A stretch of DNA of 41,599 nucleotides from Nocardioidaceae bacterium (lineage in GTDB: Bacteria > Actinomycetota > Actinomycetes > Propionibacteriales > Nocardioidaceae), in assembly GCA_025927955.1 (NCBI GenBank), contig JAICKK010000010.1, positions 1 through 41,599 of the forward strand. Direction: 5' to 3'. Each line of letters opens with the position of its first letter. The first letter of the stretch is position 1. The position numbers and the translations under genes were made by a program. This document shows, in pieces, positions 3,392 to 24,753 of this stretch. The notes under the pieces are model-generated. The model worked only from the letters and a program-made list of their open reading frames with translations, did not search any database and was not told the DNA's origin.

Positions 3392-4146
3392 GCGGTCCGG
3401 GCGCGGGGGCGCGGCAGCAGCCCGGGTCCTCCTCGCTGCGCGAGCCGGACTACTGGTGGTACGGCGCCCGCGCGAGGCTGCTCGAGGAGGTGCTCGGGCC
3501 CTACCTCGGCACCCCGGCGCTGACCCTCGACGTGGGCAGCGCCGACGGGCCCAGCGTCGGGTGGATGCGGCGCGGCGGCCACCGCCGGGTCATGCTCGAC
3601 ATCCTGCCGGGCGGTCTGGTGCCCGGCGAGGGGGTGTGCGCCTCGGCCACCCGGCTGCCCTTCGCCGACGAGGTGTTCGACGTGGTCGCCGCCTTCGACG
3701 TGGTGGAGCACTGCGACGACGACCGACGCGCGGTGGCCGAGCTGGCCAGGGTCCTGGTGCCGGGCGGGCGGCTGCTGCTGTCCGTGCCCGCCTACGCGTG
3801 GGCCTGGTCCGACCACGACGTCCGCGCGGGGCACTACCGGCGCTACACCCGCCCGGAGCTGGTCGGGCTGGTCGCGTCCGCCGGGCTGCGCGTCGAGCGG
3901 TCGACGTACGCCTTCGGTGCGGTGTTCCCGCTGTTCGTCGCCGAGCGGATGGCCCGCCGGCTCCGGCAGCGGGCCGGCCGCCCCGCCCGGCCCGGCCTGA
4001 CCCCGGTGCCGGGGCGGACCGACCGGGTCCTCACCGCGCTGACGGGCCTCGACCGGCGGGTGCTGCGCCGCCGGGACCTGCCGTTCGGGTCCTCGGTGTT
4101 CCTCGCGGCGACGAAGGGTGCCGCCGACCCGCGAGGCCCAGGGTGA
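3388..4146 (+). CDS. Class I SAM-dependent methyltransferase (Methyltransf_11 type)
   Basis: 252 residues. Motif I LDVGSADGPSVGWM (around residue 47), FDVVAAFDVVEHCDDD and the post-motif LVPGGRLLLSVPAYAWAWSDHD with HYRRYTRPEL match bacterial methyltransferases that act in lipopolysaccharide and polyprenol-linked glycan loci. The GTG start (3388) overlaps the wecE stop as GTGA, so translation is coupled. The substrate could be the amino sugar made by the preceding gene (an N- or O-methyl group) or another part of the glycan; the sequence does not decide. The last 116 bases overlap the convergent flippase gene. Confidence 0.75.
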   Translation: MSGPGAGARQQPGSSSLREPDYWWYGARARLLEEVLGPYLGTPALTLDVGSADGPSVGWMRRGGHRRVMLDILPGGLVPGEGVCASATRLPFADEVFDVVAAFDVVEHCDDDRRAVAELARVLVPGGRLLLSVPAYAWAWSDHDVRAGHYRRYTRPELVGLVASAGLRVERSTYAFGAVFPLFVAERMARRLRQRAGRPARPGLTPVPGRTDRVLTALTGLDRRVLRRRDLPFGSSVFLAATKGAADPRGPG

Positions 4147-5332
4147 GGAACGCCACGACCTCGGCCACGAGCAGGCACGCGGTCACCCGCACCGGGGCGG
4201 AGACACCCAGGAGCGCCGGGTAGGCCACCGCGGCGGCGGCCAGCGCGGCCAGCCAGGAGCGGGCCGCGCTCCCGGCCCGGTCGTAGGCGAGGGCGAGCAC
4301 CACCAGCACCAGGTTGCCGATGGCCAGGGTGCAGCTCGACGCCGCGAGCGCGCCCTGGTCGCGAGCCAGCACCACGTCCGGGCCGAACACCACCCGCAGC
4401 AGCTCCGGCCCGGGCCAGGCGCCGGCGGCGGCAGCGAGGGCGGAGGCCGTGGCGATGGCCGGCAGCAGCACCCCGCGCAGCGAGCCGACCCTGCGCTCCT
4501 GCCCGGTGGCGACGAGCGCCGCGACCCGTGCGGTCAGGGCCGACACCAGGCCCAGGGCGAGCATGTACGGCGCGCGGAACAGCGCGAGCGCCGCGAAGAG
4601 CGTGGTCACCTGTCCCTGCCCGCCGCCGACCAGCGCGAGCACGACCGGCCCGCCGGTGAGGACGGTCTGCGCCACCAGCTGCGCGGCGCCGGCCCCGGCC
4701 AGGAACGCCATCGGCCCGGACGTCGCGGCCGAGCCGCGCACCCGGGCGTAGCGCATCGAGGAGGGCCACAGCACCACCACGAGGTGGCCGGCGACCAGGC
4801 ACAGGCCGAAGGCGGCGGGGGCCCGGACCCCGGACAGGAGCAGGCCGCCGACCGCCAGGCAGCGCAGCGCGTTCTCCGCCACCAGGGAGGTGCCGAGCGC
4901 GACCAGCCGGCCGCGGGCGGCCAGCCCGCCGCGGACGACGCCGACCAGGGCCGAGCCGAGGGTCACCAGCCCCACCATCAGCGGGAACCACGGGTCGCCG
5001 CGGCCGAACAGCGGCTCGCGGACCGCCCAGGCCAGCGCGGTCAGCACCGCGGCCGCGGACCCTGTCACGACCGCCAGGCCCCTGGCCGCGGACCGGACGG
5101 CGCCCTCGCCGTCCGCGGTCACCGTCCGCGCGATCCAGTGCTGCACGGGGAAGGTGAACGCCGCACCGGCGAACGTCCAGTAGCTCCACAGCACCGAGAC
5201 CGGCCCGGCGGCCTCGGCGCCGAGGGCCCGGGTGGTCGCGGCGAAGAACACGTAGGCGAGCAGGCCGCTGAGCGCCGAGCCGGCGGCCAGCGCGGTGGCG
5301 TCCCGGGTGCGCCGGCTGCGGACGGTGCTCAT
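4031..5332 (-). CDS. Wzx-like polysaccharide flippase (MATE/MurJ superfamily)
   Basis: 433 residues, almost entirely hydrophobic, with about 12 predicted membrane segments starting at ATALAAGSALSGLLAYVFFA. The length and the pattern of small and hydrophobic helices match O-antigen/teichoic-acid flippases (polysaccharide biosynthesis protein family), which move lipid-linked glycans across the membrane. The ATG at 5332 overlaps the stop of the upstream membrane protein (ATGA), so it is the last gene of a minus-strand operon. The final ~38 residues (GRRHPSSPRGTP...) are a low-complexity Arg/Pro/Gly tail read antisense to the 3' end of the methyltransferase gene. This suggests that an earlier stop was lost. 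No ABC exporter genes are present, so this is the only visible export candidate. Confidence 0.7.
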   Translation of the reverse strand: MSTVRSRRTRDATALAAGSALSGLLAYVFFAATTRALGAEAAGPVSVLWSYWTFAGAAFTFPVQHWIARTVTADGEGAVRSAARGLAVVTGSAAAVLTALAWAVREPLFGRGDPWFPLMVGLVTLGSALVGVVRGGLAARGRLVALGTSLVAENALRCLAVGGLLLSGVRAPAAFGLCLVAGHLVVVLWPSSMRYARVRGSAATSGPMAFLAGAGAAQLVAQTVLTGGPVVLALVGGGQGQVTTLFAALALFRAPYMLALGLVSALTARVAALVATGQERRVGSLRGVLLPAIATASALAAAAGAWPGPELLRVVFGPDVVLARDQGALAASSCTLAIGNLVLVVLALAYDRAGSAARSWLAALAAAAVAYPALLGVSAPVRVTACLLVAEVVAFLTLGLAGRRHPSSPRGTPRTRTAGPGGAAPAGRGPSAR

Positions 5333-6858
5333 GCCGGACCCGCCAGGTGCGGGGTCCGGGCGGCGCGCAGCAGCTGGAGGGTGCGGTGGCCGAGGTCACG
5401 GTCGGCGTACCACACCCACCCGGGCGCCGAGCCGACCCGGCGGTAGTCCGCGCGCAGCGCCTCGGACAGCCATTGCCGCCTCGGCTCGCCCACGGCCACG
5501 AGGCTCGGCGCCCGGCGCACGATCCACCGGCCGAAGCCCTGCAGCCCACCCGGCCACGTGGCGTCGACGTACTCGTCGAGGCCGCTGGCGAACATCAGGT
5601 AGCGGGTTGGGCTCGTCCTCCCCGACAGCACCAGCGGCTGGGGTGCGTTGACCGTCATCATGGTGGCGCCGGGAGGCAGCACGGAGAGCTTGGCCGCCAC
5701 CGACCTGCGCTGCAGCAGCAGCGTGTCGCTGCGCTGCGTCACCGAGAACGTGAGCCCCAGGCCGGCCGCCACGAGGACCCACGCCACAGCCAGGGCGACC
5801 GCCGGCCCCACGCGGAGGCGACGGGACGCCCACCGCCACGTGGCGGCGACACCGAGCGCGGACAGCGGGAGCAGCGTGAACACGTCGGGCCAGGAGTCGA
5901 AGTCGTGCAGGGTCCACGCGATCCCCACGACCGCGGCGACGCCGAGGGCGGCGACGGTGACGGCCTCCGGCTCGTGCGCGCGTACGACGGGCCGCGACGC
6001 CCGCACGGACAGCACCAGCAGCGCGACGAGACCGGCGACGAGCACCCACAAGGTCGCGCCGTAGCCCTCCCGCAGCAGCGCCCAGTCGGCTCGCAGGTGC
6101 GCGGTCATCGGGTCCGCGGAGGTGTACTGCACGTTGATGACCACGAACGCCTCGAGGGCCTGCGAGAGGGCGCCGACCACCGCGAAGTACGCGAGCGCCG
6201 CCGCCACGGGCAGCGCGCCGCCGAGCACGACCAGCCCGAGCGCGCGGAGCCGCCGCCCTCGCGGGTCGGCCAGCGCGCAGACGAGCACTGCCGGTGCGCC
6301 CACGATGAAGCCGAGCTGGAGCACGAGGGTGGCCAGGCCGAGCGAGAGGCCGGCCGCGAGCCACCGCCGCCGGGTCAGCGCCCACACCGTGCAGACCACG
6401 AAGAGCACCATCGGCGTCTTCTCCCGCGGGCCGTCGGCGGCGTACTCCACGAAGCCGTGGAAGCTCAGCAGGGTGGCGGCCGCCACCAGCCCGGCGGTCC
6501 GGGTGCCGAGCAGGTCGCGCCCGGCCAGGTACATCACCCACACGCAGGCGACGGCGATGAGCAGGTAGAACACCCGGGCGCCGAGCAGGTCGGGGCGTCC
6601 GAGGGCCCGGGCGCCGGCGATGCCGACGGCGGGCAGCAGGTGCGCCAGGGGACCGGCCCGGTTGAGGATGCCGACGTACGGCGGCACGCCGTCGAGCACC
6701 TGCTGCCCCGCGTACGTGTAGACCGACAGGTCGCGGGAGAGGTAGGAGTCGAACCCGTGCAGGACGTAGACCACGAACGAGACCAGGGCCGCGACGGGCC
6801 CCAGCGGGTCGACGCGGGCGGGAAGGAGCCGGCGGGCCGGCGCGGGGCCGCTGGTCAG
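5329..6858 (-). CDS. Polytopic membrane protein, probable GT-C glycosyltransferase
   Basis: About 509 residues with roughly ten membrane segments followed by a soluble C-terminal part of ~130 residues (TVNAPQPLVLSGRTSP, then GWVWYADRDLG). The first outside loop (HGFDSYLSRDLSVYTYAGQ, then LDGVPPYVGILNRAGPL) carries acidic residues and the P-P-Y/N-R-A-G pattern I associate with GT-C enzymes of the GT39/GT87 kind, which use polyprenyl-phosphate sugars. A polymerase role cannot be excluded. The start is uncertain. No ATG or GTG lies in frame near the expected N-terminus, and a CTG at 6858 overlapping the previous TGA (CTGA) is the best fit to the local coupling pattern. The frame is open further upstream, but that part is antisense-like shadow of the preceding gene. 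Confidence 0.6.
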   Translation of the reverse strand: MTSGPAPARRLLPARVDPLGPVAALVSFVVYVLHGFDSYLSRDLSVYTYAGQQVLDGVPPYVGILNRAGPLAHLLPAVGIAGARALGRPDLLGARVFYLLIAVACVWVMYLAGRDLLGTRTAGLVAAATLLSFHGFVEYAADGPREKTPMVLFVVCTVWALTRRRWLAAGLSLGLATLVLQLGFIVGAPAVLVCALADPRGRRLRALGLVVLGGALPVAAALAYFAVVGALSQALEAFVVINVQYTSADPMTAHLRADWALLREGYGATLWVLVAGLVALLVLSVRASRPVVRAHEPEAVTVAALGVAAVVGIAWTLHDFDSWPDVFTLLPLSALGVAATWRWASRRLRVGPAVALAVAWVLVAAGLGLTFSVTQRSDTLLLQRRSVAAKLSVLPPGATMMTVNAPQPLVLSGRTSPTRYLMFASGLDEYVDATWPGGLQGFGRWIVRRAPSLVAVGEPRRQWLSEALRADYRRVGSAPGWVWYADRDLGHRTLQLLRAARTPHLAGPA

Positions 6859-9530
6859 CTGCGTGCTCCGATGGCGGCGTAGAACTGCTCCATCGCCCGG
6901 CGGTTGTACTCCTCGGCGTCGAGCCGGCTGGCCGGCACCTTCCCGGCCAGGAAGCGCCGCATCCCGCCGGCCACCCCCTCCACCGAGAGGGGCACGACCA
7001 CGCCCGCGTCCTCGGGCACCGAGTCGCGCACCGACGAGAAGGAGGTGGTGACGATCGGCAGGCCGAGCGTGCGCGCCTCCAGGATGACCATCGGCTGGCC
7101 CTCGTAGTCGCTGGAGAGCACGAAGCAGTCCGCCTCGCGCATGATGGCGTACGGGTTGTCGACCTGGCCGGCGAGCGTCACCGCGTCGGAGAGCCCCAGG
7201 CTGAGCACGAGGCCCTGCAGGTGCGGCTCGAGGTCCCCGCCGCCGAGGATGACCAGCCGGGTGCTCGGCCGCTTCTCGTGCACCTTGGCGAACGCCTTGA
7301 TGAGCCGGGCGTGGTTCTTCTCCGGGGACAGGCGCCCCACGGAGACGAAGGTGATCGTGTCCGCCGACGTCTGGACCCGGTTGAGCCGGGCACGGCTGCG
7401 GGCCTCCCGGATCAGGTCGCGGGCGGTGTAGTGCTCGAGCAGCGCGGACATCGCAGCCGCGATGTTGTCGGTCGGCACGGTGATCCGGGACGGCGCACCG
7501 CTCGCACCCGCGCGCTCGGCCGGGTCGTCCGCCCCCAGGAGCCCGGCCATCCGCAGCACCCGGTCGGTGTCCATGGTGTTGAGCGCGTAGGTGAACTGCT
7601 CTGGCCGGGCATAGGCGGCCAGCTTGAGCTTGTTGACCCGGTTGAGCTCGCGGGAGACCGACACGAGGCTGTCGAACTTGTCGTACGTCGAGAACACGGC
7701 GCCCAGCCGGTCCTCGAGGTGACGGCCCACGGTCTCCCTCCTCATGTCGGCGTCCATGTCGTTGTGCAGCCAGATCGACTTGTGGTGCGCGTCCACGACG
7801 GAGTACAGGAAGGGCGCGTAGCAGCCGTAGCCGCTGAAGTCGACGAGGTGGTCGAAGCGCGTCTGCCCGAACATGCGCTGCCACTCGGTCGACCAGTAGT
7901 CGATGTGCTCGGGCGGGAACACGTCGGGGAGGCCGTTCACCATCAGGTTCTTGGTCTCGACCCGGCGGCGGCGGCGGGTGGCGGCGAAGACGGGGATGCG
8001 AGGCACGACCCGCACCCGCGGGTCGACGAGCTGCATGTTGCGCCAACGGTCCCGGCCACGGCTGAACGGGTAGAACGCGGTGACGTCGAACCGGTCGTAG
8101 TCGAGGTGGCGCAGCAGGTTGAGCGCGGAGGTGGTGATGCCCTGGGACTTCATGCTGCCGAGGTAGACCAGCAGCTTCTCCTTCTCGGTCCCGAAGTCGC
8201 GCAGCACGCGGTAGTCGGCCTCCGGCCGGCCGCGCATGACGACGTCGACGACCCGCTCGCAGACGCCGCCGTCCTGCGGGGACACGAAGGCCGGGTGGAG
8301 CCCGGCGTCACCGTCGTCCGCGCAGGCGCCCGACCCGAAGCCGAAGTCGCCGGCCAGCGCGGAGTCGACCAGCTTGAGCAGGTCGGGGGTCGTCGAGCAC
8401 ACCGGACCGGGCAGCTCCTCGTGGTGGACGTAGAGCCCTCGCGTCGAGGAGTACTCCTCGAGGTCGGGGACGTAGTGCACGACCGGCCTGCCGGTGGGGC
8501 CGAAGTCGCAGAAGATGCTGGAGTAGTCGGTGACCAGCACGTCGGTGGTGGCCAGCACGTCGCTGGTGGGCAGGCTGTTGGGCACCAGGAAGCCTCGATG
8601 ACCGGAGTCGCCGGTGCGCTCGCGGACCACGTCGTAGATCACCTGGTGCACCTTGAGCAGGACCGCGACCTCCTCGCCGTCCACGGACGCCTCGAGCTCG
8701 CGCACGGTCGCCAGCAGCTGCGCGGCGTTGACCCAGGGGGTGCCGAACGACTCGCCACGCCAGGTGGGGGCGTACAGCACGACCCGCCGGTCGCCGACGT
8801 CCACTCCGTGCTCACGCAGCCGGCGCCGGGTGGCCTCGGGATCGGCGAGCGCCTGCACCAGCCGGTCGACGCGGGGGGCGCCCTCCTCGATGACCGCGCC
8901 CGCGAAGACGCCCTGCAGCCGGTAGGCGCTGCGGTACATCGTGTCGGTCATGTAGGGGTTCGCGGAGAGCAGGTAGTCGGCCTGCAGGAAGTTGCGGGTG
9001 ACGTTGCGCGACTCCAGCCCGCCGTCGGGCATGTCGACGCCCATGTGCTTGACGGGGACGCCGTGCCAGGTGTTGACGTAGACCTGCCCGTCGCGCTTGG
9101 CGAACCGTGGCTGCCAGGTGGCGTTGTTCACGAGGTACTTCGCCGTCGCCAGTGCCTTGAAGTAGCCCATCGACCCGGTGGCCACGAAGCGCACCCGGGG
9201 GTGCTCGGCGAACTCGGTGGTGACCTCCGGGTAGGCGGTGGGGTCCGAGAGCGCCCACACGTGCTCGAGGTCGGCCATGTCGGGCTGGGTCAGCAGGTAG
9301 CGGAAGAGCGCCTCGGGGCTGTCGAGGACCCCCCTGCCCCCGAACGACTCGTACAGGACCGTCCGCTCCCACAGCGGCGCGGAGCGCCACACGGCGTAGC
9401 GGTCGGTGACCAGCTCCTCCCACGCGGTGCGGGCGCGGCTGCGGACGGCCAGCCTCTTGCGGGCCCGGCCCACGGTCTCTGCAGCCCACACGGCGTCTCG
9501 CACTCCTCGTCGTCGGTCGGAGCCCGGCAC
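6855..9530 (-). CDS. Fusion of a CDP-glycerol glycerophosphotransferase (TagF/TagB-like) domain with a GT4 glycosyltransferase
   Basis: 891 residues from a GTG start. Residues ~50-400 form a teichoic-acid polymerase domain: LVNNATWQPRF, NTWHGVPVKHMG (near 155), VVLYAPTWRGESF, LLKVHQ and LVTDYSSIFCDF (near 335). These carry the conserved His and Asp residues that bind CDP-polyol phosphate in TagF. Residues ~430-885 form a family-4 glycosyltransferase: LLVYLGSMKSQGITTSALNL, then FVSVGRLSPEKNHARLI (near 730), SDYEGQPMVILEA and LPIVTT. One protein could therefore add both polyol phosphate and a sugar to a wall polymer. It sits between the membrane protein and a family-2 transferase on the minus strand, and its stop overlaps the next gene. 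CDP-ribitol as donor cannot be excluded. Confidence 0.85.
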   Translation of the reverse strand: MPGSDRRRGVRDAVWAAETVGRARKRLAVRSRARTAWEELVTDRYAVWRSAPLWERTVLYESFGGRGVLDSPEALFRYLLTQPDMADLEHVWALSDPTAYPEVTTEFAEHPRVRFVATGSMGYFKALATAKYLVNNATWQPRFAKRDGQVYVNTWHGVPVKHMGVDMPDGGLESRNVTRNFLQADYLLSANPYMTDTMYRSAYRLQGVFAGAVIEEGAPRVDRLVQALADPEATRRRLREHGVDVGDRRVVLYAPTWRGESFGTPWVNAAQLLATVRELEASVDGEEVAVLLKVHQVIYDVVRERTGDSGHRGFLVPNSLPTSDVLATTDVLVTDYSSIFCDFGPTGRPVVHYVPDLEEYSSTRGLYVHHEELPGPVCSTTPDLLKLVDSALAGDFGFGSGACADDGDAGLHPAFVSPQDGGVCERVVDVVMRGRPEADYRVLRDFGTEKEKLLVYLGSMKSQGITTSALNLLRHLDYDRFDVTAFYPFSRGRDRWRNMQLVDPRVRVVPRIPVFAATRRRRRVETKNLMVNGLPDVFPPEHIDYWSTEWQRMFGQTRFDHLVDFSGYGCYAPFLYSVVDAHHKSIWLHNDMDADMRRETVGRHLEDRLGAVFSTYDKFDSLVSVSRELNRVNKLKLAAYARPEQFTYALNTMDTDRVLRMAGLLGADDPAERAGASGAPSRITVPTDNIAAAMSALLEHYTARDLIREARSRARLNRVQTSADTITFVSVGRLSPEKNHARLIKAFAKVHEKRPSTRLVILGGGDLEPHLQGLVLSLGLSDAVTLAGQVDNPYAIMREADCFVLSSDYEGQPMVILEARTLGLPIVTTSFSSVRDSVPEDAGVVVPLSVEGVAGGMRRFLAGKVPASRLDAEEYNRRAMEQFYAAIGARS

Positions 9531-9580: not shown

Positions 9581-11485
9581 TCAGCGGCGCAGCCGGCGTC
9601 GCAGGACCCCGGCCAGGCCGACCGCCCCGGCGCGGGTCCGGGTGAGCGCCGTCCGCGCCGCGGCCGCCCGCCCGGCCGCACCCCGGGTCTCCGGGCCGAC
9701 GGTCGTCAGCGGGCGGCCGCGCCGGCCCTGGAGGGTCAGCCGGAGCGGCCCGGCCCCGGAAAGCCGGCCGCGGGACTCCACCCAGGCACGCCCCTGGCGC
9801 CCGACGAGGCGGGCCGGCTGCTCGTCGGGTCCGATCGCGAGCACGGCGGGCAGCGTGCTGTCGCCGGCGACGTGCACCGCCGGCAGGTCGAGCCGCACCC
9901 CGCTGGGCCCTCGGTGCAGGCAGCCGTCCGTGACGCCCGCGAGCGCCGCGAGGCTGCGGACCCGGCCGGACAGGTCCAGCGCGAGGTTGCCGCCGTGGGT
10001 GTCGAAGACGACCACGGGCCGGCCCTCCACGAGAGCGGCGGAGCGGTGGGCGGCCCCACCGGGAACCCGTCTGGTCGGCGTGTAGCCCAGGCCGCTGAGC
10101 CGGGCGAACACGTCGTAGGTCTCCTCGGCCAGCGGCCCCCCGCAGGCGGCCGACCCCGGGTCCAGGTCGGTGGCCAGCGAGACCTCCAGCCGCAGCGACC
10201 CGTCCGTCCCGCCGACCCGGACCTCGGTGTCGGTGGGCAGCAGCCAGTCGACAGCCGTCTCCCGGGAGCGGACCACGACCTCGCCGACCGCGCGGGGGAG
10301 GTCGTCGGTCAGGTCCCAGGTCGCCGGGTGGGTCGCGGCCCGCAGCCGGTCCGGCACCCGTCGTACGACGCGCCCGTCGACCCGGTCCAGGGGCAGGGGC
10401 GCGCCGTCACGGTCGACGACGACGGCCTCGACCTCGATGCGGAGGCTGCCTTCCTGCCACGACGTGCGCGTCGCGCCGATGTCGAGGTGGTGGCCGTGGT
10501 CGAGGTCGGCGAGGGCCAGGAGGAGGTCGCGGTCACCGGTCCGCAGCAGCGTGGACCGGGCGCGGTCCGCCGGCGTGAGCAGCGCGTCGAGGTGCGGCGG
10601 GAAGTGCTCCAGCAGCTCGGTGAAGGTGGCGAGCAGCCGGGTGGCGTGCTCGGGGTCGTAGCCGTCCAGGGCCGCGACCCGTTCGAGCACCCGGCTGCGG
10701 TACCAGCGCACGAGCAGCTGGTCCTTCTTGGCGCCGTCCGGCATCGCCAGCAGGGGGCGCAGCGAGGCGCGGAACGACGTCCAGTAGACGTCGTAGTCGT
10801 AGGACGCCTTGTGGCTGTTGTCCTCGTGGATGATCCACTGGTAGCAGGGGTAGTCGGCCAGGACGCCGATGGCGTCGGTGCTCGACCAGGCCAGGCCGTT
10901 GATGGCGAAGTCCTCCAGCCGCACCCGCCCCTCGGGGAAGCGGATGTCGTTCTCGAGGAGGAACGAGCGCCGGTAGAGCTTGTGCGGGGTGATGCACTGC
11001 AGCACGTTCTGGTCGAGGCGGTCCACGCGCGGCAGGTGGTGGCGGAAGGCGGTCCAGCCGGGCCGGTTCCAGCCCTTCACGACCTCCTTGGGGTGTACGA
11101 CGTCGAGGTGGTGGTGCGCCGCGAAGCGGTACATCCGCTCGAGCGCCTCGGGGAAGAGGTAGTCGTCGTGGTCGGCGTAGAAGACGTACTCGCCGCTGGC
11201 CATCGCGGTGCCCACGTTGCGCGGGCGGCCGGGCCACCCGGAGCTCGGGATCCGGTCCACGCGCATGGTGGGCCGGGTGGCGGCCAGGCGCTGCAGGCGC
11301 TCGAACGTGTCGTCGCTGGACCCGTCGTCGACGAACACCGTCTCGTACTCGTCGGTGGGCAGGCTCTGGTCGTCGAGGGACGCCACCAGGCCGTCGAGCC
11401 CCGGAGGGGAGTTGTAGGTCGCGACCACGACGCTCACCTTCGGGCTGGCCATGGGTCTGGCCCGGGGGCCGGCGGTCGGGGACAT
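9581..11485 (-). CDS. Family-2 glycosyltransferase with a long C-terminal extension
   Basis: 634 residues. The GT-A domain covers residues ~16-230: KVSVVVATYNSPPGLDGL, VFVDDGSSDDTFERL, SGWPGRPRNVG and the DXD-like FYADHDDYLFPEAL. WPGRPRN and HDD are typical of transferases found in teichoic-acid and capsule loci, and a catalytic-region RLEDFAING follows near 195. The remaining ~400 residues look beta-rich with acidic and small residues, resemble nothing I can name, and end in a basic tail (GVLRRRLRR). The ATG at 11485 has a GGTGAG upstream; a second in-frame ATG at 11452 directly before ASPKVSVVV is an alternative. A 50-base gap separates it from the TagF-GT4 gene downstream. Confidence 0.8.
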   Translation of the reverse strand: MSPTAGPRARPMASPKVSVVVATYNSPPGLDGLVASLDDQSLPTDEYETVFVDDGSSDDTFERLQRLAATRPTMRVDRIPSSGWPGRPRNVGTAMASGEYVFYADHDDYLFPEALERMYRFAAHHHLDVVHPKEVVKGWNRPGWTAFRHHLPRVDRLDQNVLQCITPHKLYRRSFLLENDIRFPEGRVRLEDFAINGLAWSSTDAIGVLADYPCYQWIIHEDNSHKASYDYDVYWTSFRASLRPLLAMPDGAKKDQLLVRWYRSRVLERVAALDGYDPEHATRLLATFTELLEHFPPHLDALLTPADRARSTLLRTGDRDLLLALADLDHGHHLDIGATRTSWQEGSLRIEVEAVVVDRDGAPLPLDRVDGRVVRRVPDRLRAATHPATWDLTDDLPRAVGEVVVRSRETAVDWLLPTDTEVRVGGTDGSLRLEVSLATDLDPGSAACGGPLAEETYDVFARLSGLGYTPTRRVPGGAAHRSAALVEGRPVVVFDTHGGNLALDLSGRVRSLAALAGVTDGCLHRGPSGVRLDLPAVHVAGDSTLPAVLAIGPDEQPARLVGRQGRAWVESRGRLSGAGPLRLTLQGRRGRPLTTVGPETRGAAGRAAAARTALTRTRAGAVGLAGVLRRRLRR

Positions 11486-12307: not shown

Positions 12308-13777
12308 ATGCGTCTGATCATCGGGCCGACGTGCGGCGGGAAGTCGACGTACATCTCCACCGCGCTGGCGCACCTGGAGTCCGCGAGCCCCCTCGTGCAC
12401 TTCGGGTTCTCCTTCCTCGAGGACGAGACGACGACCATCCCCAGCGGTCCCCGGGACGTCGTCCACTACAACCTGCTGCACACGTTCCGCCGAGCGTCGC
12501 GCGCCCAGGCGAGCCTTGCCGGCGACACCCTGCTCAAGGACCTGCTCGACGCCGCGGCCGAGGTGGTCGTGGTGAGCGCGCCCCGGTCGGTGCTGCTGCG
12601 CCGCGCCGAGCAGCGCACGCATGCGGAGCCCGGGCACGAGGAGTTCGACGACCGGCTGTACTACCACGAGGACTGGCTGCCGGCGCTCTCCATCCCTGAC
12701 CTCGCCCAGGTCTACGAGCACCTCGCGCTCATGCTCGACGAGGCGGGCGTCCCGGCGCAGTACTTCTGCTCGCACGCCGACGTGCACGGTGGTCTCCAGC
12801 AGGTCTCCCGCTGGGAGCTGCCCAGGCTCGCCGGCGGCGACGCCGAGGAGCGGTGCCGCCACGGGCACGTGCTGCCGGACGCGCCGGCGCTGTCGGGGCA
12901 GCAGCGCTCCTACCAGGCCGACCATCGCATCGGCGCGGTGTCGGCGACGATCAGCCGGGCGCTGAGGATGCCGCTGGCCGGCCGCAGCCTGCTCGACATC
13001 GGCTGCGCCGAGGGCGAGGTGGCGCTGAGCGCCGCGCGGATGGGGGCCCGCGTGACCGGCATCGAGCCGCGCCCCCGCCGGCTCGCGCAGGCTCGGCTCA
13101 CCGCCGAGACGCTCGGCCTCGACGTCGACCTGCGCCGGCTGGCCCTCGACGACCTCCTCGACCGTCCCCGGACCTACGACGTGGTGGTGGCCCTCAACGT
13201 GGCCCACCACGTCCGTAACCCCTTCGGGTTCCTGGACCGGGCCGGCCACCTCAGCTGCTCGCACCTGGTGCTGGAGTACCCGGGACTGGCGGACGAGAAG
13301 TTCCGCGCGACCCTGCCGGACGGGCAGAAGGTGGACGACGACCAGCCGCTGGTGGGGGTCAGCCTGCGCGAGCAGGACCAGACGTTCGTGTTCACTCCGG
13401 CGGCGCTGGAGAGGTACTTCCTCGACACGGTCGGGCTCTTCCGCCACCACCGGCTCGTGGAGTCGCCGATGCCTCACCGGTGGATCTCGGTGTTCTCCGG
13501 TCGCCGGACTCCCGACGTCCACCCGGCGCCGACCGTCGCGCAGCTGCGGGCGAAGGTGGACAGTCGCGAGCGCAAGCTCGAGAAGCGCGAGCGGCAGCTG
13601 GCGAAGCGCTCCCGCCAGCTCGAGCGCCGCAACGAGCAGCTGAGGAGCCGCGAGCGCGACCTCGTCGCGCTCCGCCAGCGCCTCGCCGAGATCGAGAGCA
13701 GCCGGTCGTGGCGGCTGACCGCCCCCCTGCGTGGCGTCTCCAGGCGCGCGGCCGGCCTCGGGCGGCCGGCCCGGTGA
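12308..13777 (+). CDS. P-loop kinase-like domain fused to a SAM methyltransferase and a coiled coil
   Basis: 489 residues with an unusual order. The N-terminus MRLIIGPTCGGKSTYIS has a Walker A loop (GPTCGGKS, residues 6-13); residues 1-170 look like a small nucleotide-dependent kinase or NTPase, with EVVVVSAPRSVLLRR as a possible following strand. Residues ~225-375 form a class I methyltransferase: LLDIGCAEGEVALSAARMG, VTGIEPRPRRLAQAR, then YDVVVALNVAHHVRNP. Residues ~410-455 are a charged coiled coil (RERKLEKRERQLAKRSRQLE). The end has SRSWRLTAPLRG, a motif common at the C-terminus of actinobacterial and proteobacterial glycan enzymes. The reaction is unknown. It is translationally coupled (GTGA) to a sulfotransferase that also ends in a coiled coil. 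Confidence 0.75.
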   Translation: MRLIIGPTCGGKSTYISTALAHLESASPLVHFGFSFLEDETTTIPSGPRDVVHYNLLHTFRRASRAQASLAGDTLLKDLLDAAAEVVVVSAPRSVLLRRAEQRTHAEPGHEEFDDRLYYHEDWLPALSIPDLAQVYEHLALMLDEAGVPAQYFCSHADVHGGLQQVSRWELPRLAGGDAEERCRHGHVLPDAPALSGQQRSYQADHRIGAVSATISRALRMPLAGRSLLDIGCAEGEVALSAARMGARVTGIEPRPRRLAQARLTAETLGLDVDLRRLALDDLLDRPRTYDVVVALNVAHHVRNPFGFLDRAGHLSCSHLVLEYPGLADEKFRATLPDGQKVDDDQPLVGVSLREQDQTFVFTPAALERYFLDTVGLFRHHRLVESPMPHRWISVFSGRRTPDVHPAPTVAQLRAKVDSRERKLEKRERQLAKRSRQLERRNEQLRSRERDLVALRQRLAEIESSRSWRLTAPLRGVSRRAAGLGRPAR

Positions 13778-21231: not shown

Positions 21232-24200
21232 ATGCGTCGCGGCACGGAACCGGTCTCGGGGTCGGCAACGGCCGGTTGGCTGCGTACCGCCCGACGGCGG
21301 TGGGCGGCGGCGCGACACGGTCCGCACGACGCCGGGGAGAGTGCCCGGCCGCCGTTGCCGGACACCCCCCTGCTCTCGGTGGTGGTGCCGGTCTACCAGG
21401 TCGAGGACTACCTCGCGTCCTGCCTGGACTCCCTCGTGGACCAGACCTACCGGAGGCTCGAGGTCGTCGTGGTCGACGACGGGTCGACCGACGGCAGTGC
21501 GGCCATCGCCAAGGAGTACGCCGCGCGCGACCCCCGCATCCGGTACCTCCGCCAGCGCAACCGGGGGCTCGGGGCGGCCCGGAACGCGGGCCTGGACGCG
21601 TGCACGGGCGACCTGGTCGCGTTCGCCGACTCCGACGACCAGGTCCCCCCCACCGCCTACCAGCGCATGGTCGCCACCTTGCGGCGGTCCGGGTCCGACT
21701 TCGTGGTCGGCGCCCTGGCCCGCCGGGAGGGTGGCAGGCAGACGATGACCCAGTGGGCGAGGTCGTGCCACGCCCGCCGCCGGCTGGGCGTCACCCTCGA
21801 CGACGTCCCGGACATCCTCGTCAACGTGGTGGCGTGCACGAAGGTCTTCCGGCGCGACTTCCTGCGCGACGTGCGGTTCCGGTTCCCCGAGGAGATCCGC
21901 TACGAGGACCAGGTCCCGATCACCCGGGCCTACCTGGAGGCGCGCGCGTTCGACGTGATCCCCGACGTCGTCTACGAGTGGCGCCGGCGCGAGGACAGGT
22001 CGTCGATCACCCAGCGCAAGGCGGAGATGGCGGACCTGCTCGACCGGTCGACGGCCCAGCGTGAGCTGGCCGAGCTCCTGCACGAGCGGGCCTCCGCGGT
22101 GGTGCTGCGGCGCTGGTACGTCAAGCTGCTGCGCCAGGACTTCTTCATGTACCTGCGGGTGGCGGTCGACGCGGCGGACGAGTACTGGGACGTGCTGCGC
22201 GAGAACATCGTCTCGATCTCCGCGCAGGCGCCGCCGGGCGTCGAGGCCGACGTCGAGCTGCGGATGCGCGTCGCCTTCTGGCTGGGCCGGCACGGCCACC
22301 GCGACGCGCTGCGGAGGTTCCTGTGCGACGACGGCTTCCCGGGGTGCAACTTCGCGGTGGTCAGTGGCGCCGCAGGGCTCCAGGCCGACCTCCCCGGGCT
22401 GCGCGAGGAGGGCGCGGACGTCCCCGACGCGCTGCTGAGGATCCGCGACGTCGACCTCGACCTGCGTCCCCGTCTGGAGTCCCTGCACCTCTCGCCGGAC
22501 GGCCCGATGCGGCTGCGGTGCGTGGCCGCCCTCCGCTTCGTCGACCCGTCGCGGCAGGAGGTCGAGACCCGGCTGCGGCTGGTCGGTCCCGCGGCGACCT
22601 CGCCCGTCGAGGTCGCCACCCGGCCGGCACCGGATCCCGCGGCGAACCTCGCCGCCCGCCGGTTCTTCGAGGACCACGCGAGGTCGTCGGTCGCGGCGAC
22701 GGTCGACCTGGGCCCGGTCGTGGCCGCGAGCAGACCCGTGGCGCCCACCACCTGGGAGGTCCGGGTCGTGGCCGCGGCCGGCGACCTCGCGGGCGAGTCG
22801 CCGCTGAGGAGCCGTCCCGGCCGGGTCGGCGCGGCGCTGGGGCGCCCGGTGGTCGTCGACGGCGCGCTGGTCTCGGCAGCCTGGTCGGAGCGGCGCGGGC
22901 TGCTCCTCGAGGTGCGGCGCCAGTACGTCGTCGTGACCCGGGCCGACTTCCGCGGTGACGTGCTCGAGCTGGACGTCCGCTCACCGGGGCTGGCCGGCGT
23001 CGCCGAGGTGAACATCGGCGGGCAGGGGTGGCCCGTCGTCGCCGAGGCCGCCATGTCCGGGGACGCCGACACCCAGACGGTGCGCGTACCGGCCGAGGCG
23101 CTGGCGGCGACGTCGAGCACCGGAGTACTTCGGATCCGCACCGCGACGTCGACGTGGACGCCGGTCTCGGTGGTGGGGTCGTTCGAGCCGCGATCGGTGA
23201 GCAACGGGTCGAGGGCGTTGACGGTGACCTCGACCGGTGCCCTCGCCGTGGCCCGGGACCGGCCGTGCCTGCTGGTGGACGACGTCACGATGGAGGGCGG
23301 TCGGCTGCTGGTCACCGGCCGCGGCCGGCACGCGGACGGTGCGACCCTCGCCCTGAGCGGTCCCCGGGCGCGGACGCCGGGGCAGCCCCTCTCGCCGTCG
23401 GGAGCCCGGTTCTCCGTCCGGCTCCCCTTGCGTCCCCTGCCTGCCTACCTCTACGGCGAGCTGCCCGCGAACGCGTATGCGCTCGTCGCGGTGCGGGACG
23501 GCGAGCCCGTCCGGGTGCAGGCGGGCGGCGCGCTGCTGGGCGCCGACCGCCGACAGCTGGCTCCCGGGTGGGGCCTCGAGACGGGCGAGGACGGGCGCGT
23601 GCTGGTGCGCCGGAACCGCCTCCCGGACCGGGTCGTCACCAGCGACCTCGAGCAGACCCGGCTGCGCCGCGACCGCTACCGGGCTGCCCGCCGACGCGGC
23701 CCGGCCGACCTGGCGCTGTTCGAGTCCTTCTCCGGGACGGGCACGGGCGACTCGCCGCGCGCCCTGTGCGACGCGCTCCTGCGGCGGGGGAGGGACCTGG
23801 ACCTCGTGTGGAGCGTCGAGGACGCCTCCGTGCCACGCGTCGAGGGCACGCGGTCCGTCGTACGGGGGTCGCCCGAGTGGTACGACGCCCTGGGCTCGGC
23901 GCGCCTGCTGGTCAACAACGGCACCTTCCCCGCCGCGTTCCGGAAGGGTCCGGGACAGGTCTACGTCCAGACCTGGCACGGGACGCCGCTCAAGCGCATC
24001 GGTGCGGACATCGCGGCGCCGCTGATCTCCACCGAGCACTACGTCCGGCTGCTGCTGGACGAGGCGCGGACCTGGGACCACCTGGTGTCCCCGAACGCGT
24101 TCAGCACCGAGGTCTACCGCCGCGCGTTCGGCTACGAGGGCTCGGTGCTCGAGGCCGGCAGGCCGGCCAACGACGTGCTCGTGAGCCCCACGTCCGAACG

Positions 24201-24753
24201 GATGCGCGAGCGGGTCCGCGCGGAGCTCGCCCTCCCCGAGGACCGGACGGTCGTGCTGTACGCGCCCACCTGGCGTGACCACGCGCGGCGCGGCGGGTCG
24301 TGGGAGAAGGTGCTCCACCTCGACCACGAGCTGGTCACCCGGGAGCGCGACGACGTCACCGTGCTGGTCCGCGGGCACGCGAACACCGCCCACCGGCCGC
24401 TGGTGCGCGACGGCGAGCGGGTCCTCGACGTGACGGCGTACCCCGACGTGGGGCGCCTCTACCTGGCCGCGGACGTGCTCGTCACCGACTACTCCGCCGC
24501 GATGTTCGACTTCTCGCTCACCGACCGGCCGGTCATCCTGCTCACGCCCGACCTCGAGCTCTACCGCGACCGGGTGCGCGGGCTCTACCTCGACCTCGAG
24601 GCCGTGGCCCCCGGGCCCGTCGTGCGCACCACCGAGGAGGTGCTCGCCTGCCTCGACGACGACTCGTGGGCCCCCGACCGCAAGCGGGTGCGCGAGGAGT
24701 TCCTCCCCCTCGACGACGGCTCGGTCGCCGACCGCGTGCTGGACGCCCTCTGA
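21232..24753 (+). CDS. Bifunctional family-2 glycosyltransferase / CDP-glycerol glycerophosphotransferase (TagF-like)
   Basis: 1173 residues. Residues ~47-240 form a GT-A domain: LLSVVVPVYQVEDYLASCL, VVVVDDGSTDGSAAIA, RNRGLGAARNAGLDA and ADSDDQVPP. Residues ~430-760 are beta-rich and unassigned (repeated short strands, many Val/Arg). Residues ~790-1170 are a teichoic-acid polymerase domain: LLVNNGTFPAAFRKGPG, QTWHGTPLKRIGADI (near 912), VVLYAPTWRDHARRG, LVRGHANTAHR and LVTDYSAAMFDFSLTDRP (near 1083). The order is the reverse of the 6855-9530 protein, where the TagF-like part comes first. Expected role: cytosolic, membrane-associated assembly of a polyol-phosphate/sugar chain. The ATG follows GAGAGGAG. 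It stands alone with hairpins downstream. Confidence 0.85.
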   Translation: MRRGTEPVSGSATAGWLRTARRRWAAARHGPHDAGESARPPLPDTPLLSVVVPVYQVEDYLASCLDSLVDQTYRRLEVVVVDDGSTDGSAAIAKEYAARDPRIRYLRQRNRGLGAARNAGLDACTGDLVAFADSDDQVPPTAYQRMVATLRRSGSDFVVGALARREGGRQTMTQWARSCHARRRLGVTLDDVPDILVNVVACTKVFRRDFLRDVRFRFPEEIRYEDQVPITRAYLEARAFDVIPDVVYEWRRREDRSSITQRKAEMADLLDRSTAQRELAELLHERASAVVLRRWYVKLLRQDFFMYLRVAVDAADEYWDVLRENIVSISAQAPPGVEADVELRMRVAFWLGRHGHRDALRRFLCDDGFPGCNFAVVSGAAGLQADLPGLREEGADVPDALLRIRDVDLDLRPRLESLHLSPDGPMRLRCVAALRFVDPSRQEVETRLRLVGPAATSPVEVATRPAPDPAANLAARRFFEDHARSSVAATVDLGPVVAASRPVAPTTWEVRVVAAAGDLAGESPLRSRPGRVGAALGRPVVVDGALVSAAWSERRGLLLEVRRQYVVVTRADFRGDVLELDVRSPGLAGVAEVNIGGQGWPVVAEAAMSGDADTQTVRVPAEALAATSSTGVLRIRTATSTWTPVSVVGSFEPRSVSNGSRALTVTSTGALAVARDRPCLLVDDVTMEGGRLLVTGRGRHADGATLALSGPRARTPGQPLSPSGARFSVRLPLRPLPAYLYGELPANAYALVAVRDGEPVRVQAGGALLGADRRQLAPGWGLETGEDGRVLVRRNRLPDRVVTSDLEQTRLRRDRYRAARRRGPADLALFESFSGTGTGDSPRALCDALLRRGRDLDLVWSVEDASVPRVEGTRSVVRGSPEWYDALGSARLLVNNGTFPAAFRKGPGQVYVQTWHGTPLKRIGADIAAPLISTEHYVRLLLDEARTWDHLVSPNAFSTEVYRRAFGYEGSVLEAGRPANDVLVSPTSERMRERVRAELALPEDRTVVLYAPTWRDHARRGGSWEKVLHLDHELVTRERDDVTVLVRGHANTAHRPLVRDGERVLDVTAYPDVGRLYLAADVLVTDYSAAMFDFSLTDRPVILLTPDLELYRDRVRGLYLDLEAVAPGPVVRTTEEVLACLDDDSWAPDRKRVREEFLPLDDGSVADRVLDAL

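Follow-up and report, generated by a model that had tools for sequence, protein, structure and literature searches.

P0001, a protein of 489 residues encoded with an ATG start on the forward strand at positions 12308..13777 of the window (the whole stretch of 41,599 nucleotides that was analyzed), joins a P-loop kinase-like domain, a class I methyltransferase, a charged helix, and an SRSWRLTAPLR tail. We tentatively propose, at somewhat under an even chance, that it is a kinase-methyltransferase for a sulfated, teichoic-acid-type surface glycan, which it would phosphorylate and methylate while its tail holds it at the membrane. The evidence favors an enzyme that uses ATP and SAM and is held to a membrane-bound surface glycan.

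Domain architecture and the P0001 family

The gene has a GC content of 0.96 at third and 0.48 at second codon positions, on a contig of 73% GC. The Pfam and NCBIfam libraries offer only generic methyltransferase names for the protein, the top NCBIfam match being TIGR04290 with 61.5 bits against a cutoff of 300, and no family in either library covers the N-terminal domain above its cutoff, in agreement with the original prediction that the architecture lies outside the named families. The structure model of the whole protein is of modest quality (mean pLDDT 69.6, pTM 0.53).

The N-terminal domain spans residues ~1 to 185 (12308..12862, forward strand) and opens with the Walker A motif that had been pointed out at residues 6 to 13 (12323-12346), which is intact, reads G6-P-T-C-G-G11-K12-S13-T14, and follows a predicted strand. 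Of 20,000 composition shuffles, 3 place a GxxxxGK[ST] pattern within residues 1 to 30 and 56 have it at any position; a motif of the GPT[CS][GA]GKST type is kept in all four members of the family. Past the fourth strand, R93, R99, R103, and E107 are equally invariant, the arginines falling within the LID-like stretch APRSVLLRRAEQR at residues 91 to 103.

The AlphaFold model of this domain, based on four sequences (pTM 0.80, mean pLDDT 78), looks P-loop kinase-like, but its Foldseek matches are weak, with nothing in the PDB at E<=0.001, so that the NTP-binding fold called for by the original prediction is weakly supported. The best PDB matches are YorR (3kb2; E 1.3e-3, TM 0.43/0.48) and adenylate kinase (E 2.3e-3), the TM scores of the best matches range from 0.41 to 0.48, and all of the best 50 rows stay below 0.5. 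The list is scattered, with beta-carbonic anhydrases at ranks 3 and 6 and Teg14, a sulfotransferase, at rank 18. The BFVD fold search returned AAA, zeta-toxin, and thymidylate-kinase-like proteins (best E 2.9e-3), with viral sulfotransferases in 42nd and 50th place. Pfam AAA_33 is weakly matched in three of the four members (best E 1.3e-4; 16.7 bits against a cutoff of 27 for the window protein), and when the domain is aligned to five P-loop kinases by local profile comparison, only 21 residues around the P-loop are covered. The domain thus has the Walker A motif, the strand and helix order, and the LID-like arginines of nucleotide-kinase-like proteins such as YorR, adenylate kinase, and AAA_33, but it differs from them in that no catalytic acid could be recognized by eye in the four-member alignment. 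As modeled, it is probably a divergent P-loop kinase-like domain that binds ATP. The possibility that it is an APS kinase supplying PAPS was rejected: P0001 lacks the motifs of that enzyme, and the AAA_33 locus L087 in its own genome resembles one by eye.

The second domain is a class I SAM methyltransferase of residues ~202 to 397 (12911..13498, forward strand), with Y202, H300, H301, and R391 invariant. Pfam places Methyltransf_25 at residues 229 to 305 (E=9.8e-12) and Methyltransf_23 at 206 to 329 (E=1.1e-11), and the modeled fold extends to ~397, leaving the range of ~225 to 375 given earlier right to within a few residues. The best-scoring methyltransferase domains are those of UbiG, EvdMO1, and TIGR04290; against solved structures, the family profile reaches 5.6e-11 for UbiG, 7.9e-8 for EvdMO1, and 8.5e-7 for the O-antigen terminator WbdD. 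As with TIGR04290, the UbiG match is far under its NCBIfam cutoff (49.8 versus 102.95 bits), and we know of no P-loop domain, coil, or tail in these three families.

The Escherichia coli O9 WbdD aligns to the P0001 methyltransferase with 45 bits, and the invariant H300 and H301 fall exactly on WbdD H132 and H133, which together with Y16 and R203 are described as required for phosphate methylation (PMC3482155); all four residues are present at those numbers in the WbdD of E. coli HS. When the profiles are forced into a global alignment, Y202 comes to lie on or near Y16 and SPMPHR391 on SPVPR203, one column off; the local profile alignment reaches neither Y16 nor R203. These residues are compatible, at the level of sequence, with a phosphate substrate.

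The histidine pair is not diagnostic of phosphate methyltransferases, and a specific kinship of the P0001 methyltransferase with that of WbdD was rejected, as many other methyltransferases are no more distant and UbiG and EvdMO1 score higher. At the place of the pair, NodS and RebM are described to have two histidines or two tyrosines (PMC3482155), and of 34 pattern matches 6 carry HH, 4 of them family members. In a Foldseek search, WbdD ranks 33rd. Ranked by profile score together with 68 control methyltransferases, the two O9-type WbdDs come 26th and 28th of 71 and the O8-type last. The controls (71 loci minus three that gave no usable match; 11 being viral contigs) had all been collected through their similarity to P0001, a bias in their favor. 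A rough alignment shows all four of Y, H, H, and R in 3 of the 68 controls (L046, L065, and L049), but it misses R203 in both O9-type WbdDs.

Four members of the family were found: the window protein and its homologues in genome G006 (62%), genome G159 (51%), and Isoptericola cucumis (50%). The domain order, which was to be checked across genomes, is kept in all four as P-loop domain, methyltransferase, helix-like segment, and SRSW[RK][LV]T[AE]PLR. Among the matches listed in a search of 98 relatives, only the G006 protein is a full-length homologue, and the G159 protein was found with the N-terminal domain alone among 391 genomes of the order. A scan of genome contigs gave 32 loci, of which 2 are full-length (L036, taken as G006, and L037, Isoptericola cucumis) and 30 match the methyltransferase region only. 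With the N-terminal profile, 3 of 341 Nocardioidaceae genomes (the window genome, G006, and G159) and 2 of 394 class genomes (the window genome and G159) were matched; the family is rare among Nocardioidaceae. Isoptericola belongs to a different order from the Nocardioidaceae carriers, and the gene has therefore probably moved between lineages.

Some further candidate relatives of the N-terminal domain were dismissed. A match in G119 (L035, E 7e-4) was set aside as spurious because no open reading frame there has, by eye, the P0001 architecture. At E<=0.05 the phylum search matched 32 of 296 genomes, among them that of the window. Six of the other hits were inspected: one is an AAA_33-like kinase (L117), three look by eye like Rho factor (L099, L100, and L103), and two gave no Walker A frame (L101 and L106). 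The domain found no match in plasmids by tblastn and a single match in phages, at E=6, and the viral contigs searched gave no relative.

Gene neighborhood and the link to sulfotransferases

The P0001 cluster is of a teichoic-acid type, holding two glycerophosphotransferases, one TarS-linker GT2, and three sulfotransferases within the window. Immediately upstream, the small Sulfotransfer_2 protein P0003 (11548..12216, forward strand) ends 91 bases before P0001; its true start is perhaps the ATG at residue 17, where the G006 homologue begins. Immediately downstream, the Sulfotransfer_2 protein P0002 (13774..14865, forward strand) would share 4 bases with P0001 if GTG 13774 is its start, and its C terminus appears by eye as a charged, helix-like region followed by a very basic stretch. 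The reverse strand encodes a GT2 glycosyltransferase with a TarS linker domain assigned by Pfam (9581..11485) and a CDP-glycerol glycerophosphotransferase of the TagF type with a GT4-like domain (6855..9530), and the forward strand encodes a fusion of GT2 and CDP-glycerol glycerophosphotransferase (21232..24753). The surroundings of P0001 comprise GT2, sulfotransferase, DegT aminotransferase, methyltransferase, and GH16 genes and further glycosyltransferases.

The triad of P0003, P0001, and P0002 is kept in G006, so that P0001 stands between two sulfotransferases in both genomes in which it is clustered. At P0001 in G159 (6 neighboring open reading frames scanned) and Isoptericola (8 scanned), no glycan-assembly cluster was seen. 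An orthologue of P0003 occurs in all four carriers nonetheless, at 52% in G159, where it sits among three glycerophosphotransferase proteins, and at 50% in Isoptericola. At E<=1e-10, P0003 is present in 23 of 341 genomes of the family, including all 3 carriers of P0001 and 20 genomes without it (hypergeometric 2.7e-4, not corrected for relatedness), and within genus g1 in both carriers versus none of five other genomes (p 0.048, with shared ancestry uncorrected). Because of this co-occurrence across carriers, P0001 is tied to P0003 more firmly than by position alone, and we infer that the polymer of the P0001 pathway is sulfated. The Sulfotransfer_2 family as a whole is present in 4/4 carriers and in 4 of 16 hand-picked other genomes (Fisher 0.014). 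Glycerophosphotransferases give no such signal (3/4 carriers versus 12/16 others), Isoptericola having no match.

Beyond P0001 itself, 6 of the 8 genomes with Sulfotransfer_2, among 20 searched, have such a gene within ~4 kb of a glycerophosphotransferase (G003, G006, G012, G034, G159, and the window genome), which suggests that sulfated teichoic-acid-type polymers recur in Nocardioidaceae. Two further observations concern the window cluster. A NuoD-like gene (NADH-quinone oxidoreductase subunit D; 14876 to ~16087, reverse strand; NCBIfam 328 bits, below the cutoff of 360) lies inside it, and an open reading frame with nearly the same C terminus adjoins the G006 cluster (L068:2695-3870). Of two long reverse-strand open reading frames, the one at 4031-5332 has no Pfam family and the one at 5329-8046 has a weak GT87 match (E 2.9e-4) and no NCBIfam name.

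The C-terminal helix and tail

Residues 410 to 464 (13535..13699, forward strand) form one helix in the whole-protein model, some 10 residues longer than the charged coiled coil proposed at ~410 to 455. The segment has a 7-residue periodicity, with 17 of 51 identities at lag 7, a value reached by 1 of 20,000 shuffles, and is underlain by a 21-bp DNA repeat of 2.9 copies with 74% matches; Pfam RNase_Y_N matches it weakly, below cutoff. It has mostly one leucine per heptad and is strongly basic, and is therefore a probable but weak coiled coil.

The SRSWRLTAPLR motif follows directly at residues 465 to 475 (13700..13732, forward strand). The motif was thus rightly seen, although 14 residues come after it, placing it near the C terminus and not at it. 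Between the methyltransferase and the motif, counted from SVFS to SRSW, the segment has 67 residues in the window protein, 53 in G006, 28 in G159, and 40 in Isoptericola. In WbdD, ~130 residues separate the end of the kinase (residue 459, PMC3482155) from the motif (residue 592).

The combination of a coil and, after it, SxSW[RK]xTxPLR or a near variant is found in proteins of several bacterial groups, namely methyltransferases, a sulfotransferase, and a fusion with a glycosyltransferase (window 13700-13732; L118:5001-5072; L119:6001-6084; L121, WbdD residues 592-602; L097, L098, and L058). In the O9 WbdD of E. coli HS, a protein of 708 residues whose gene lies between the O9 wzt and wbdA and whose annotation says no more than methyltransferase, the coil and SRSWRMT element reads EIEKIHRSRSWRMTKGYR; the pairwise tail score with P0001 is 28 bits for the O9 protein and 35 bits for the O8 type. 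A tblastn search of 72,556 plasmid records with the 38-residue tail (13649-13762) gave, at E<=1, 10 records with weak matches (E 1e-3 to 0.7), six of which have one 24-residue match in common and also match O9 WbdD 557-665 (33.6%, E 5e-9). In the one of these six that was opened (H27), the tail belongs to a methyltransferase flanked by an O8-type wzt and a large glycosyltransferase, where an O8-type O-antigen cluster has its chain terminator. A Marivivens plasmid carries the tail on an FkbM methyltransferase that has an ABC transporter on one side and a glycosyltransferase on the other, and a Sulfitobacter plasmid on a hypothetical protein near glycosyltransferase genes; the Rhizobium and Caballeronia records enter as matches only.

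A tail-like element also ends the Sulfotransfer_2 protein L097 (G036) and the Methyltransf_24 protein L098 (G019) and is internal to L058, which looks by eye like a sulfotransferase-glycosyltransferase fusion. The DNA pattern for SWRxTxPLR has 7 matches in 58 genomes, against 1 for a control with the pattern reversed. Two of the 7 are family members, two are true tails (L097 and L098), and three lie outside such a protein. L097 is also a homologue of P0002 (34%), and its ending, SRSWRVTRPLR, is unlike the basic end of P0002. A literature search on several spellings of the motif found no paper. Because the tail occurs on a sulfotransferase and on other methyltransferases too, the coil and SRSWR-type tail is a portable module that WbdD also has and that is not specific to terminators; its presence on glycan-pathway methyltransferases and sulfotransferases makes it look like a recruitment module.

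Proposed function and comparison with known glycan terminators

In the proposed mechanism, P0001 would be bound peripherally to the membrane, its C-terminal helix and SRSWRLTAPLR motif holding it at the membrane-bound assembly machinery in the manner of the C-terminal part of WbdD. The P-loop domain would phosphorylate the glycan with ATP, probably on a terminal sugar or glycerol, and the methyltransferase would then methylate the product, giving a methyl phosphate or modifying an adjacent hydroxyl. P0001 may work after or beside the small sulfotransferase P0003. By analogy with WbdD, capping by a phosphate and then a methyl group would be the most economical use of the domains. In favor of the proposal are the invariant Walker A motif and arginines, the model of the N-terminal domain, the tail and aligned histidines in common with WbdD, the precedent of another kinase fold in a Klebsiella pneumoniae O7 terminator, the content of the cluster, and the co-occurrence with P0003. 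Weighing against it are the lack of a recognizable catalytic acid, the weak fold matches, a methyltransferase no closer to WbdD than to many others, a histidine pair that is not diagnostic, the missing region after the motif, a tail not confined to terminators, the absence of a glycan-assembly cluster among the scanned neighbors in G159 and Isoptericola, the absence of a glycerophosphotransferase match in Isoptericola, and the 20 family genomes that have P0003 and lack P0001.

Decoration of the repeats is nearly as likely as capping. As a full alternative, which we regard as possible but on the whole unlikely, P0001 would modify side groups, each repeat of the polymer, or a precursor, alongside the flanking sulfotransferases, and the tail would merely recruit it to the membrane-bound glycan. 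Its place between two sulfotransferases wherever it is clustered agrees with this, as do the like tails that end L097 and L098 and the variable length of the stretch ahead of the motif, from 67 to 28 residues, which befits a spacer rather than a ruler; on the other hand, methyl-phosphate terminators are known to pair a kinase with a methyltransferase (PMC3482155, PMC11231755), and P0001 has its tail in common with WbdD. It is rather unlikely, in our view, that the P-loop domain is no kinase of the glycan but merely nucleotide-binding or degenerate (a regulator, or a sulfotransferase-like, PAPS-binding domain) and P0001 an O-methyltransferase: no catalytic acid is evident and the weak, scattered fold matches include Teg14 and viral sulfotransferases, but a canonical GxxxxGKST is invariant in 4/4 members, together with the conserved LID-like arginines, and the PSB loop of sulfotransferases differs from GxxxxGKST.

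The original prediction raised a parallel to the control of chain length by WbdD, whose coil is described as a chain-length ruler (PMC5082667). Such a ruler, with heptad insertions setting the length of the polymer, would be a special case of the kinase-methyltransferase that we prefer, and we consider it very unlikely. The difference of 14 residues between the window and G006 segments corresponds to two heptads, the kind of step expected of a ruler, and the 21-bp repeats under the helix point the same way. The role is doubtful, however, because the segment is so reduced in half of the family, at only 28 and 40 residues, and the coiled coil is weak. Also against it, P0001 has no counterpart of the WbdD region after the motif, Wzt_C (PF14524) was found in none of three genomes searched (completeness 87%, 81%, and 100%; Isoptericola left out), no ABC exporter family appeared among 40 window open reading frames scanned, and two of the four genomes have no glycan-assembly cluster among the scanned neighbors of P0001.

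The boldest form of the proposal, which we think quite unlikely, would make P0001 a third, independently assembled methyl-phosphate terminator, in a Gram-positive bacterium, with a P-loop kinase, rather than a protein-kinase or AmiN-like fold, N-terminal to the methyltransferase, the SRSWR-type tail of WbdD, a sulfated teichoic-acid-type polymer, and a length adjusted by heptads. Kinase-methyltransferase terminators with coiled coils have been worked out in Gram-negative O antigens, and to find one in Gram-positive bacteria, built on an unrelated kinase, would mean that the capping logic was assembled more than once. It would also give a handle on the finishing of teichoic-acid-like or sulfated surface polymers, which is little understood.

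One of the closest known parallels is the O9/O9a WbdD of E. coli, a kinase-methyltransferase that has, like P0001, a class I methyltransferase with the aligned histidine pair and catalytic domains N-terminal to a coil ending in SRSWR(M/L)T, the kinase activity of P0001 being a prediction. The suggested parallel gains a further point in the coil and SRSWR(M/I/L)T tail, common to P0001, O9 WbdD, and the O8-type methyltransferase; the differences in kinase fold and domain order had been noted with it. The kinase-like part of P0001 is a P-loop domain placed first, whereas WbdD has a protein-kinase fold between the methyltransferase and the coil, where P0001 has no Pfam domain of that fold and no room for one. 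The coil of P0001 is also shorter than that of WbdD, and further reduced in two homologues. Ending 14 residues after the motif, P0001 lacks the ~106 residues that follow it in WbdD, whose C-terminal region is described to hold a membrane helix and a polymerase site (PMC3447403, PMC11231755). In its setting, too, an actinobacterial teichoic-type cluster with sulfotransferases and no Wzt_C found, P0001 is unlike WbdD, which lies beside wzm/wzt.

The O8-type WbdD, identified by its place between wzt and a glycosyltransferase in a record that says methyltransferase, is a methyltransferase-only terminator whose coil and SRSWRITQPLR are closer to P0001 than the O9 tail, but it has no kinase and its methyltransferase is barely alignable. 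A terminator with another kinase fold has been described in ORF6 of Klebsiella pneumoniae O7, whose N-terminal part combines a methyltransferase, an AmiN-like kinase, and a coil in a methyl-phosphate terminator (PMC11231755); by that description it is set apart from P0001 by the AmiN-like kinase, its position after the methyltransferase, and the GT2 modules after the coil. A literature search for WbdD-like terminators found no P-loop version in titles and abstract openings. P0001 follows the logic of WbdD but is no WbdD, departing from it in the kinase fold, the order of the domains, the region at the C terminus, and the exporter.
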